Below, piece after piece: positions 18,937 through 24,568 of a DNA stretch of 64,000 bases. Position 1 is the stretch's first letter; the number at the start of each line of letters is the position of its first letter. The DNA is taken from assembly GCA_017405785.1 (NCBI GenBank), contig JAFQZR010000001.1, forward strand, positions 1 to 64,000, given 5' to 3'. Under the pieces are notes generated by a model that saw only the letters and a program-made list of their open reading frames with translations, had not been told where the DNA came from and made no database searches. Source of the stretch: Erysipelotrichaceae bacterium. Lineage in GTDB: Bacteria; Bacillota_I; Bacilli_A; Erysipelotrichales; Erysipelotrichaceae. The position numbers and the translations under genes are program-made.

Positions 18937-20097
18937 TTATTCAATTATGTCCTTGACTTTCCAGCCCTTATAGCTTCCTCTATAGGCGCTGACTGTATCA
19001 GCCAGAGTCAGGATTGAATGATTGAGTTTCTCGATATCAGCGTCAACTGTATTTGACAGATATACTTCACCGTTATCATTGATGTCTTCATCAACTTCAA
19101 ATCTCAGATCCAGAGCAACCTTTCTATATGCCTCAAAATCGCTTCTGTTGGCAAATACTATATAATGCAGCAGTTCCAGTTCACGGCATGGACCAATGAC
19201 ACCCATCATTGACAGGATCTTGTTCTTGATGGAATTTACCTTGTTTTCTGTCAGATGAGGGAACGGATTCTCTTCAACGACTGGTACTTCCGGCTCCGGT
19301 TCAGCAACCGGTTCCTTTACTTCTTCCACAACTGGTTCTTCGAAGCTTTCATCAACGATTTCTTCTTCCTCTTCAGCAACAGCAGGTGTTTCTTCAACAA
19401 CCTCTTCTTCAGCGACTTCTTCAACAGGTGCCTCTTCAGCTTCTTCCATGATTTCTACAGGTTCTTCTTCAATCTCTTCAATTTCAGGTTCTACCTGTGG
19501 CAGAACTTCATCTGGAACTTCTTCCGGTTCAGTTACCTTTTCTTCTTTGGAACCTTCCATTACCTCATTGATGATATCCTCTATGTCAAGGTCATCCAGT
19601 GTGTCCAGATCAGATGTTTCAACATCAACCTGACCGATTACCGGGGCATTTTCAATGATGTTTACCTCAGGTTCTTCAACCGGTTCCTCAGCTGGTTCCT
19701 CAACAGGTTCTTCCTCAGGGTTATTGTTTTCAATGGCGTTCAGCAGATCTTCAATCTCAGGATGCTCTTCGGTAACAAGATTGACTTCCCGGTTGTCAGG
19801 AATATCCATCTCTTCAATACCTTCACCTAAATCAGGATCTTCCTGCGGTTCTTCATCAGATTCTTCCGGCTGCTGGAAATACTCTTCAGGCTGATTTTCC
19901 AGAGGATTTTCGATGATTACTGCTTCTTCCTCGACAGGCTGAACTTCTTCAGCAACTTCTGGTTTCTGCGGTTTTGGAGCCTTTTCAATGTCAATGAGTC
20001 TCTCTTCCTTCTCCTCTTCTGCTCTCTTGGCAAGGAATGCAGCGACGGCACTGGCAACGGCGGCAGCATAGATTACACCTTTTATAAATTTATTCAT
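18937..20097 (-). CDS. Acidic Pro/Glu-rich membrane-anchored protein, RraB-like C-terminus
   Basis: 386 residues in three parts. An N-terminal membrane segment lies at about 5-23. A low-complexity region of Glu/Pro/Val (about 25-285, with EEPVEEPAEEP-type repeats) forms a flexible acidic stalk. A folded C-terminal domain occupies about 288-386. The C-terminal part (FEAYRKVALDLRFEV ... YRGSYKGWKV) resembles the RraB domain, a regulator of RNase E in proteobacteria that ends in a similar Y-x-G-W motif. That match is by eye and its meaning in a Gram-positive is unclear. The gene is single, divergent from the lipoprotein, with its own promoter, AGAGGTG site and terminator. Confidence 0.72.
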   Translation of the reverse strand: MNKFIKGVIYAAAVASAVAAFLAKRAEEEKEERLIDIEKAPKPQKPEVAEEVQPVEEEAVIIENPLENQPEEYFQQPEESDEEPQEDPDLGEGIEEMDIPDNREVNLVTEEHPEIEDLLNAIENNNPEEEPVEEPAEEPVEEPEVNIIENAPVIGQVDVETSDLDTLDDLDIEDIINEVMEGSKEEKVTEPEEVPDEVLPQVEPEIEEIEEEPVEIMEEAEEAPVEEVAEEEVVEETPAVAEEEEEIVDESFEEPVVEEVKEPVAEPEPEVPVVEENPFPHLTENKVNSIKNKILSMMGVIGPCRELELLHYIVFANRSDFEAYRKVALDLRFEVDEDINDNGEVYLSNTVDADIEKLNHSILTLADTVSAYRGSYKGWKVKDIIE

Positions 20098-20190: not shown

Positions 20191-21039
20191 ATGAAAAAGT
20201 TAGCTTTGATCTCACTGATCCTGTTGATGGTTTTAAGCGGATGCAAGGGCAAGGAATTTGCCCCTTACGTTACCCAGAAACAGGTGATTCTGGATCTTAA
20301 CGGAACCTACAAAGCCGAAAATCTCATTACTGACGTAGATAATATCGGCCTTATCTTTGAGGTTCTGGATAATAAAATCGATACATCCCGCCCCGGTGAC
20401 TATCCTGTCACCTATCGTATTTCCTCTGCTAATGGTAAGAAATCCGTTGAGAAAACCTTCATTTTCCGTGTCAGAGATAACGATGCTCCGGTACTGACTG
20501 TCCCTGAGGAAATCAGACTGAAACAGGGCGAAGTCTTTTCCATCAGTAATTATGCTCAGGCTTATGACTCCCGCGAAGGAAACCTGACTGACCAGATAAG
20601 CTATGACGGTGTGGTAAATTCCTACCGCGAAGGAACCTATCAGATTGAGGTATCTGTCACCGACAGTTTCGGTAATGTCTCCCATGAAACCGTTTATATC
20701 ATTATTGAATCAGGCGACAGTTCATCATTTATTTCTCAGATCGCCGGTGATTATACCGATACCACCTATACGTACGGCCAGGCTCCTGCCCTCACTTTAA
20801 ATACCAACAATACCTTCACTCTTTATCTTAACGGCTGTTCCATTCTGTCAGCTGTTGAAGGTGATTACATCATGTATGAAAACCGCCTTTATCTTAAGAG
20901 TGATGAGTATCATTTTTCCGATAAACCGGAAGAAGACCTGATCTGTTTTGTGATCATGATGGACGGTACATTACGCTTTGAAAGCGAACTGAACATCTGT
21001 GCCCCAAGCTACGGCGACATTTTTGAAAAATCCAACTAA
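20191..21039 (+). CDS. Ig-like domain lipoprotein
   Basis: 282 residues. The signal peptide ends in LSGC, so C18 would be lipidated and the protein held on the outer face of the membrane. Two Ig-like DUF5011-type beta domains follow (about 25-95 and 100-170, the second with SYREGTYQIEVSVTDSFGN). The C-terminal domain from about 185 starts AGDYTDTTYTYG and is not recognised. AAAGGAG is well placed. The substrate or partner is unknown; such lipoproteins are often adhesion or cell-wall scaffolds. The 3' end is followed closely by tRNA-Gln. Confidence 0.82.
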   Translation: MKKLALISLILLMVLSGCKGKEFAPYVTQKQVILDLNGTYKAENLITDVDNIGLIFEVLDNKIDTSRPGDYPVTYRISSANGKKSVEKTFIFRVRDNDAPVLTVPEEIRLKQGEVFSISNYAQAYDSREGNLTDQISYDGVVNSYREGTYQIEVSVTDSFGNVSHETVYIIIESGDSSSFISQIAGDYTDTTYTYGQAPALTLNTNNTFTLYLNGCSILSAVEGDYIMYENRLYLKSDEYHFSDKPEEDLICFVIMMDGTLRFESELNICAPSYGDIFEKSN

Positions 21040-21982: not shown

Positions 21983-22072
21983 CATTATCCCTTTACTAAT
22001 TAGCGAAACCGATACTAATTATGTATAATTAATGTAACATCTGTTGAGTAATAATGCATAGAGGTATTGTTT

Positions 22073-24568
22073 ATGGAGAATCTTCATTATACTGCTTTCA
22101 TATCTTACCGCCACACCATGCCTGATGAAGCGGTAGCAAAGAAACTGCACACTCTGATTGAAAACTATCACATCCCCGCCAACATCAGAAAGACACTGGG
22201 GATAAACAAGATGGGCAGAGTATTCCGTGATCAGGAAGAACTGCCGTTATCAACTGACTTAGGTGCAGACATTCAGAAAGCCCTGGATAATTCAGATTGG
22301 CTGATTGTCATCTGTTCACCGCGCTATCTGGAGTCCAAATGGTGCAATGCGGAATTGGATTATTTCATATCCATCGGGAAAAGAGATCACATCCTGACTC
22401 TGTTAACTGATGGTGAACCAGGTGAATCCTTCCCTCCGCAGTTGTTGTTTGACATTGTTGACGGACAAAAAGTAAATGTTGAACCTCTGGCCGGTGATGT
22501 CAGAGCTGATACTGTTCAGGGATCTTTGAAAAAGCTGGAAAATGAAAAGCTGAGAATACTGGCTCCGATGCTGAATCTCAACTATGACGAACTGCGACAG
22601 CGTGACAGAATCAGAAGAACCCGCTTCATGGTTACAGCTGCCGCAGCTGTAATTGCCTTACTTACAGGTTTTTTGGGATACGCAATAATCAAGAATAAGC
22701 AGATAACCCGGGAAAGAAACCTGGCCATGAATAACCAGATGCAGTTACTGATTGAGCAATCGAATATCTCAACATCCTCAGGCAACAAACTTATGGCTCT
22801 GAAACAGCTGCTGGAAGCACAGGAGATTCGTAAAACAGTCGGTAACGCTAATGACAGTGCTTTCTCTGCCGCTCTGGAATATGCCCTCTATACTGATGAT
22901 TTTGAGACCGTTTTAACCATAGACAATAACAACCGACAGTTTGACAAAATGATATTCTCTCCGGATGACAAATACCTTTTGGGCATAACAAACCTCAATT
23001 CAGCCTGCCTTATCGATACCCATACCGGCAAGATCCTCCACACGGTTTCCCGTGATGATGTCGGACAGCTGGACAGCGTAGGCTTTACTCTCGATAACAA
23101 GTACTTCTATATGGTTGACTCCTGGTACAATAAGGTATCACTGTTTGACATTCAAACCGGTGAGCCTTACCGTCAATACGATGCATCGGAAGGAAACATG
23201 GCATGGAATATCGGTGACAAGGTCTTCCCTTATGACGATCATCAGATTATCGTCGTCAAAAGAAAATGTCTGGTTTTATGGGACTATGTTACCGATGAGC
23301 AAAAAGAAATTCTGCCATGTGGTAACGGCACCTTTGAAGAATATGTTCAGCCGGTAATAATTGATCTTTCACCTGATCATCAGGACATAGTCATAGGCTC
23401 CCACGGCTACGGCATAGGCATGAAAATCATGTCTCTGGATGGTACCGTCAAGACCAATCTTGAATTTAATCCGGAAAGAGGCTACCGAGAAATCGTCTAC
23501 AGCGGTAATGGAAAACATGTCGCTGCAGTATCCGGAACAATGTATTTCGTCTGGGATGCCAAAACCGGCAAAATCGAACTGTCCGGGGAAAAGGAAGATG
23601 ACTGGCCTGAGTATATTGTAATGAACAATGACGGAACGATCGCTCTGATCATGAGCTCCAATTATCTGGAAGCCATCAGCGTCAGAACCGGAAAAACCCT
23701 GTGGACCAAAACTGCTGAGTCAAACATCGTTACTGAAGCCTATATGTCTGAAAACGGCAAATATGTCAGTGCTTCAGGCGGCATAAGCGGCGTCTTTGAC
23801 ATTGCCACCGGCAGCATTATATATGATGGACCGGCTACCCGGTTCTCTCATGACAGCCGCATGGTCATAGCTGATACCTATTACAACCAGCCTAAACTAC
23901 TGGCTACCCCGGAGCTTTCCACTGTTACCAGAGTAAATAGTTTCAGTGAAAAACTGTTTACCACTCCACGTACTACCAATCTGTCACAGGTTGTTACCAT
24001 CACTCTGAGACATAACTGTTCAGATCAGTATTCACAGGAAAGCGGCAGAACAACCGGTTCCTATACAAGCCCGGACACTCATTACGGTGCTTACTGTCAT
24101 TATGACGGTTTCATCGAAGTATTTGACTTCAGTGACCTCAATAACCGGGTGAACATCTGCTGTCTCGCTGAACACTGCTATAACTGTATTTCCGACCTGA
24201 TTTTCAACGGTGATCTGATGGCCAGCTGCGGCGGTTATGATCCGAGATGTGTCATCTATGATCTGCAGGCCAAACGGATAAGATATGTACTGGCAGGTAC
24301 TGAATACTGTCATTACTGTGAATTCTCTCCAGACGGCACCAAAATCATCATGGTATGCGGTTATTACGGAAATAAGGCATTTGTTTATTCAACAGATACC
24401 GGCAATCTGTTATATGAATTCACAGCTCCTGAAGGTCATTATTTCCGAGATGCAGGCTTTACTAATGACGGTGAATCTGTAATAGCTGTTATGGATGATG
24501 GAAGTGCTATGGTCGGTACTCTGTATCTGAACATTGACGAAATGCTTGAGGCAGCTGCCGGGCGATAA
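22073..24568 (+). CDS. TIR domain, membrane segment and beta-propeller receptor
   Basis: 831 residues. The TIR domain (about 4-130) shows YTAFISYRH, FRDQEELPLS, and SKWCNAEL, whose E94 aligns with the catalytic Glu of NAD-cleaving TIRs. A basic stretch (RQRDRIRRTR) precedes one membrane helix (about 185-206). A region of about 600 residues follows, with WD40/YVTN-like blades such as FSPDDKYLL, DTHTGKILHT and FSPDGTKIIM. The positive-inside rule puts the TIR in the cytoplasm and the propeller outside, a receptor-like layout. TTG at 22067 is possible, but GAGGT lies 7 nt before the ATG at 22073. It is a single gene; defence or signalling roles are inference. Confidence 0.85.
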   Translation: MENLHYTAFISYRHTMPDEAVAKKLHTLIENYHIPANIRKTLGINKMGRVFRDQEELPLSTDLGADIQKALDNSDWLIVICSPRYLESKWCNAELDYFISIGKRDHILTLLTDGEPGESFPPQLLFDIVDGQKVNVEPLAGDVRADTVQGSLKKLENEKLRILAPMLNLNYDELRQRDRIRRTRFMVTAAAAVIALLTGFLGYAIIKNKQITRERNLAMNNQMQLLIEQSNISTSSGNKLMALKQLLEAQEIRKTVGNANDSAFSAALEYALYTDDFETVLTIDNNNRQFDKMIFSPDDKYLLGITNLNSACLIDTHTGKILHTVSRDDVGQLDSVGFTLDNKYFYMVDSWYNKVSLFDIQTGEPYRQYDASEGNMAWNIGDKVFPYDDHQIIVVKRKCLVLWDYVTDEQKEILPCGNGTFEEYVQPVIIDLSPDHQDIVIGSHGYGIGMKIMSLDGTVKTNLEFNPERGYREIVYSGNGKHVAAVSGTMYFVWDAKTGKIELSGEKEDDWPEYIVMNNDGTIALIMSSNYLEAISVRTGKTLWTKTAESNIVTEAYMSENGKYVSASGGISGVFDIATGSIIYDGPATRFSHDSRMVIADTYYNQPKLLATPELSTVTRVNSFSEKLFTTPRTTNLSQVVTITLRHNCSDQYSQESGRTTGSYTSPDTHYGAYCHYDGFIEVFDFSDLNNRVNICCLAEHCYNCISDLIFNGDLMASCGGYDPRCVIYDLQAKRIRYVLAGTEYCHYCEFSPDGTKIIMVCGYYGNKAFVYSTDTGNLLYEFTAPEGHYFRDAGFTNDGESVIAVMDDGSAMVGTLYLNIDEMLEAAAGR

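Follow-up and report, generated by a model that had tools for sequence, protein, structure and literature searches.

The window considered here, that is, the whole analysed stretch of 64,000 nucleotides, belongs to an Erysipelotrichaceae genome assembly of 1.96 Mb in 30 contigs, which by its named relatives is that of a gut bacterium, and contains a gene for a membrane protein combining a TIR domain, one transmembrane (TM) helix and a WD40-type propeller region (Table 1; referred to below as the window gene). Its reading frame is open and intact from start to stop. The neighbouring genes, a methyltransferase on one side and rplQ of the ribosomal operon on the other, are both encoded on the minus strand, and no operon partner adjoins the gene within the window. 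Nine full-length or near-full-length orthologues with 56–62 % identity are present in loci of metagenome-assembled genomes (MAGs) from rumen and gut. All nine keep the whole domain order, so a chance origin of this order is not a concern; the TIR–TM–propeller succession proposed in a preliminary description of the locus is borne out by them as well as by Pfam and AlphaFold. The genome also carries one paralogue of the gene, located on contig C24. Elsewhere in the window a lipoprotein with Ig-like repeats (Bact_surface_Ig-like, 8.4e-14) is encoded at 20191–21039, upstream of tRNA-Gln, and an anchored protein at 18937–20097 contains a long stretch rich in Glu and Pro and has a C-terminus that resembles RraB, at a score below the Pfam cut-off.

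Table 1 Features of the window gene and of channel-type partner proteins in related loci
Feature	Position	Strand	Remarks
TIR-TM-propeller gene (window gene)	22073..24568	+	831 aa plus stop; ATG at 22073, stop at 24568
Likely ribosome-binding site AGAGG	22060..22064	+	8 bases before ATG 22073; inferred, read from the sequence
TIR domain, residues 1-145	22073..22507	+	Pfam TIR_2 8.8e-13; PDB matches L6, ROQ1, AbTir
Codons W90-E94 (WCNAE), putative NADase active-site motif W-x3-E	22340..22354	+	Invariant in 18 members; L6 alignment
Linker, residues 146-186	22508..22630	+	Conserved E-K-L-R...YD.L.QR; basic inner flank
Single transmembrane helix, residues 188-206	22634..22690	+	Mean hydropathy 2.06; N-side K+R excess in 26/26
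Helical stalk, residues 208-274	22694..22894	+	AlphaFold helices to 235, 239-256, 261-272; pLDDT about 75-90
Beta-propeller region (tandem, WD40-type), residues 275-831, with about 13-14 blades	22895..24565	+	Pfam, AlphaFold, Foldseek
Potassium-channel-type (TVGYGD) proteins with C-terminal RyR domain	L059:10677-12236; L060:9383-10921; L063:7966-9525; L069:7843-9354

The N-terminal domain is recognised by the Pfam models TIR_2 (residues 9–114), TIR (2.9e-7) and ThsB_TIR (5.9e-5), and its sequence matches in the PDB are plant and bacterial TIRs. Together with the AlphaFold model this identifies the TIR fold found in NAD-processing TIR domains. These domains are also characterised by a catalytic glutamate with a tryptophan four residues before it, to which W90 and E94 of the window protein correspond. 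Both residues are invariant in 18 of 18 family members, although these share only 34 to 68 % identity with the window copy. The glutamate of the SKWCNAEL motif, already pointed out in the preliminary description, is kept in all ten orthologues compared, and an alignment with the TIR domain of flax L6 places it at the glutamate of the plant SKWC..EL motif. From this motif we infer that the TIR domain of the window protein would process NAD+.

The TIR domain is followed by the linker, the TM helix and a helical stalk. In the AlphaFold model, which was computed from ten orthologues and has a mean pLDDT of 77, a long helix (residues 171–235) and a helical pair (239–272) lie between the TIR domain and the propeller region. 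Several Pfam models of the WD40, PQQ and SMP-30 type match the protein over about residues 273–810. The predicted propeller region covers about residues 275–816, approximately 540 residues, and comprises about 54 strands up to residue 816, equivalent to about 13–14 blades, a count that is approximate since residues 635–661 are poorly modelled. Because of this number of blades, and because tandem WD40 proteins are among the best Foldseek matches, the protein probably has two propellers rather than one. A single propeller of about 600 residues had been suggested earlier; its WD40-type blades were found again, whereas the singular probably has to be replaced by a double structure. None of the Pfam matches represents an NTPase domain between the presumed sensor and effector, and the preliminary description had likewise noted its absence.

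Every family member examined possesses one clear hydrophobic helix. In all 26 members compared, lysine and arginine are more abundant on its N-terminal than on its C-terminal side, the latter being basic too. Because of this consistent bias the most likely topology of the window protein, as judged from its sequence, is that with the TIR domain inside and the propeller outside. The single helix with a basic inner flank and the outward-facing propeller of the preliminary description have thus withstood the topology check.

Near relatives of the window gene a second gene recurs. It encodes a protein of roughly 600–660 amino acids that has membrane helices at its N-terminus, Rossmann/TrkA-N-like parts and, at its C-terminus, a ryanodine-receptor (RyR) domain carrying an E-H-x-R-W...H motif. 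When a profile of 26 such C-termini was compared with the PDB, ryanodine receptors accounted for 59 of the 60 matches listed (best 1.7e-11). Homology to PF02026 is therefore recognised at the level of the profile, while single proteins fall narrowly short of the Pfam gathering cut-off (26.6 versus 27.4 bits). The RyR domain was accordingly detected with the family profile, the Pfam RyR model being insensitive on single sequences in the genus. An AlphaFold prediction of one partner, based on two near-identical sequences, reached a pLDDT of only 41 and was set aside.

The crystal structure of the phage protein RyDEP in complex with the 3'cADPR product shows ligand contacts by H75, W78, H100 and D117 (PMC13232231). 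This spacing (H, W+3, H+25, D+42) appears exactly in the sequences of four channel-type partners, and the partner from Fusobacterium keeps it with a glutamate in place of the aspartate at the last site. In the main type of partner, about 15 additional residues are inserted ahead of the second histidine; many of its members show H-x16-D, the rest having asparagine, glutamate, another residue or no acidic residue at the last site. In two diverged partners the second histidine is replaced by asparagine. One genus has an extra gene at these loci, coding for a potassium-channel-type protein with a TVGYGD filter (Ion_trans_2, 2.2e-11) and a C-terminal RyR domain (Pfam, 7.2e-6). At the four loci listed in Table 1 this gene adjoins that of a second RyR membrane protein, and two of them (L059 and L060) also hold a TIR-TM-propeller gene beside it. 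On the strength of the aligned contact residues, the RyR domain of the partners may read a cADPR-type ligand.

Linkage of the two genes was found at several levels. In one order-level sample a RyR gene is directly adjacent to 16 of 58 TIR-TM-propeller genes. In the same sample, in which many genomes are fragmented MAGs, a RyR protein is present in 33 of the 44 genomes with the TIR family and missing in 11, compared with its presence in 12 of 252 other genomes (odds ratio 60, p=2e-24, a statistic that ignores shared ancestry). Besides Erysipelotrichaceae, the pair exists in two further lineages: on plasmid pNP243 of Butyrivibrio fibrisolvens, with 320 bases between the genes, and in Fusobacterium vincentii, with a gap of 6 bases. 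The earlier statement that there is no partner gene consequently applies to the window copy and not to its family. Among the true orthologues a partner in cis was found directly downstream of two only (L029 and L032), which form one near-identical pair. In three genomes (G002, G004, G012) the RyR partner is present away from the orthologue, and a diverged partner occurs in the genomes of L026 and L028; none was found in the three orthologue-carrying genomes of L027, L030 and L031. At L030 (8646–11348), downstream of the orthologue, an open reading frame of 901 amino acids appears to fuse a YidC-like membrane insertase part to a sulfatase/LTA synthase-like part. The genome of the window gene itself gave a single RyR match, which lies on contig C24 beside the paralogue and not beside the window gene. 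This paralogue locus (L008:492-9112) encodes a TIR-TM-propeller protein, a RyR-type membrane protein whose second histidine is preceded by a long insertion, and a TIR-TPR protein with a membrane helix at its end. We therefore regard the window gene as a free-standing representative of its family, many other members of which adjoin genes for RyR membrane proteins.

RyR genes that do not adjoin a TIR-TM-propeller gene are often arranged divergently from a gene for another TIR protein. In L055–L058, from another genus, this is a TIR protein of about 680 amino acids (Pfam TIR_2, 2.5e-18; L055:8329-10371 and equivalents). In L050–L052 and L032 the RyR gene is paired with one for a NACHT-like protein of 1242 amino acids (L050:3925-7650, L032:4122-7847), which shows a weak NACHT match and an N-terminus that looks TIR-like by eye, with no Pfam TIR match; in L032 the TIR-TM-propeller orthologue sits between these two genes. 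Such pairing with other TIR proteins would be expected if the signal reader were shared, and the gene arrangements fit one reader that would serve several TIR sensors.

Orthologues of the window gene occupy many different housekeeping contexts. PADLOC, applied to 95 neighbouring proteins in search of defence genes, returned only generic ATPase and ThiF/E1-like matches. A defence-island setting, for which a search among homologues had been recommended, was therefore rejected. Measured against the refuting condition named in the preliminary description, a role in phage defence as the biological purpose of the family is thus unproven, though conceivable. In a phylum-level sample of 392 genomes the TIR family was found only in Erysipelotrichaceae at E<1e-20. 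Viral contigs gave three weak TIR matches to the TIR part and none to the partner, and the phage records searched gave no match. At one locus (L041:3788-6529) a lipoprotein-like protein of 914 amino acids with propeller-like sequence is encoded directly before the TIR-TM-propeller gene.

We propose, with a probability of roughly one half, that the family consists of membrane TIR receptors that derive a signal from NAD, for which membrane proteins with a RyR domain act as readers in a Thoeris-like design. The double propeller, most likely extracellular, would sense a ligand or a surface event. Clustering of the receptor would bring the cytoplasmic TIR domains together, and these would then produce an ADP-ribose-type signal from NAD+. 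The reader of this signal would, for many members of the family, be a partner membrane protein with a C-terminal RyR domain, which may then alter the membrane or the ion flow, in one genus possibly through gating of the potassium-channel-type partner. The window gene would act on a RyR protein encoded elsewhere, possibly that on contig C24, or by NAD+ consumption alone. A complete bacterial pathway, leading from an outward sensor via TIR-made cyclic ADP-ribose to a RyR-gated ion channel, with the window gene acting in trans, is a more tentative extension of this proposal.

The main rival to this reading is a self-contained NADase receptor, in which the TIR domain depletes NAD+ on cue and thereby causes dormancy or abortive infection with no second protein. 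In favour of such a receptor are the intact catalytic-type motif, the isolated position of the window gene and the three orthologue genomes in which no RyR partner was found, and SpbK is an example of a TIR protein acting alone through NAD+ depletion (PMC12847820). However, a TIR product without a reader would not account for the strong and recurrent linkage of related genes to RyR genes in three lineages. Because RyR genes are adjacent across the family, a signal for a membrane effector is favoured over simple depletion, which we regard as rather unlikely. Next in rank, and clearly improbable, is a non-catalytic scaffold in which TIR–TIR contacts, with no NAD chemistry involved, relay the propeller signal to other TIR proteins such as the TIR-TPR or TIR-NACHT-like ones. 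Assembly is general to TIR domains, and other TIR proteins are indeed encoded near the paralogue and near RyR genes (L050–L052, L055–L058), but a mere scaffold accounts neither for the invariance of W90 and E94 at such low identities nor for the ADPR-contacting residues kept by the RyR partners. Least probable of all is a cytoplasmic propeller on a monotopic anchor or in an inverted protein, where it would serve as a scaffold within the cell like that of STAND-WD40 proteins: a propeller cysteine content of 2.5 % versus a mean of 1.6 % in cytosolic-like neighbours, unusual for an exported domain, the basic C-terminal flank of the helix and Foldseek matches to mostly intracellular WD40 proteins would agree with it, but the charge bias in all 26 members, the one clear helix per protein and the dependence of TIR domains on cytosolic NAD+ speak against it.

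Signals of the cADPR type are made by TIR domains of bacteria, plants and animals alike; bacterial TIR signalling has mostly been described as cytosolic. In animals, direct action of such signals on RyR channels has long been debated. The presence of RyR proteins beside close and distant relatives of the window gene suggests that the pairing of TIR signals with RyR-type channels exists already in bacteria. At loci combining a TIR receptor with a RyR membrane or channel protein, the question of whether a TIR signal acts on RyR becomes testable with two bacterial genes. If the proposed receptor reading is true, TIR signalling gains a receptor that sits in the membrane and probably senses on the outside, and Thoeris-like designs gain a new effector class; should the complete pathway hold as well, the animal link between cADPR and the ryanodine receptor would gain a bacterial counterpart. 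No published TIR-RyR operon or locus was found in a literature search, which did not cover a 2025 preprint on TIR signalling (Yirmiya), so that priority is uncertain; the iSTAND/VMAP literature mentions TIR and not RyR.

Several known systems share parts of this plan. As in STAND/NACHT-WD40 proteins, a propeller serves as the presumed sensor with the effector at the opposite end; however, the NTPase domain that defines those proteins is lacking in the window protein. The plant TIR receptors L6 and ROQ1 are the best PDB matches of its TIR domain and share the SKWC..EL motif, whereas the window protein is bacterial, membrane-bound and devoid of NB-ARC or LRR. Like animal Toll-like receptors, it has a single membrane helix that separates an outer sensor from a TIR domain on the inside. 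These receptors, however, have an LRR ectodomain and a C-terminal TIR domain; in the window protein the TIR domain is N-terminal, the sensor is WD40-like instead of leucine-rich, and no adaptor cascade is known. The resemblance is one of convergent plan and not of membership. The partners resemble phage RyDEP and R12-type RyR proteins in the RyR domain with the histidine, tryptophan, histidine and aspartate contacting 2'/3'cADPR (PMC13232231). RyDEP itself, however, is small and serves phages in counter-defence, whereas here the RyR domain forms the C-terminal end of a bacterial membrane protein or channel encoded beside a TIR gene.

Closest in plan is Thoeris, in which a TIR enzyme is combined with an effector reading its ADPR-type product, the ThsA of type II being a TM-macro protein (PMC12847820, PMC11204291). 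In contrast to Thoeris, the TIR protein here is itself membrane-bound and fused to a propeller, and the effector domain of the relatives is RyR instead of SIR2-SLOG, TM-macro or caspase, types V–VI lying outside the comparison. The partners, TM-Rossmann-RyR or K+ channel-RyR proteins, represent none of the described Thoeris effector types compared. Thoeris models stayed below their thresholds on the window protein (ThcB4 scored 21.2 bits, its cut-off being 220; PADLOC ThsB at most 16.7 bits). Because an effector in cis and a described effector type are both missing and the models remain below cut-off, the window gene is not filed under Thoeris, although its plan, as far as the sequences tell, is Thoeris-like. 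The combination of a TIR gene and a nucleotide-sensing effector at one locus, as in Thoeris, is absent at the window gene and present in its relatives, where the TIR gene adjoins a gene with a nucleotide-binding-type domain and the membrane effector resembles the TM-macro plan of ThsA.
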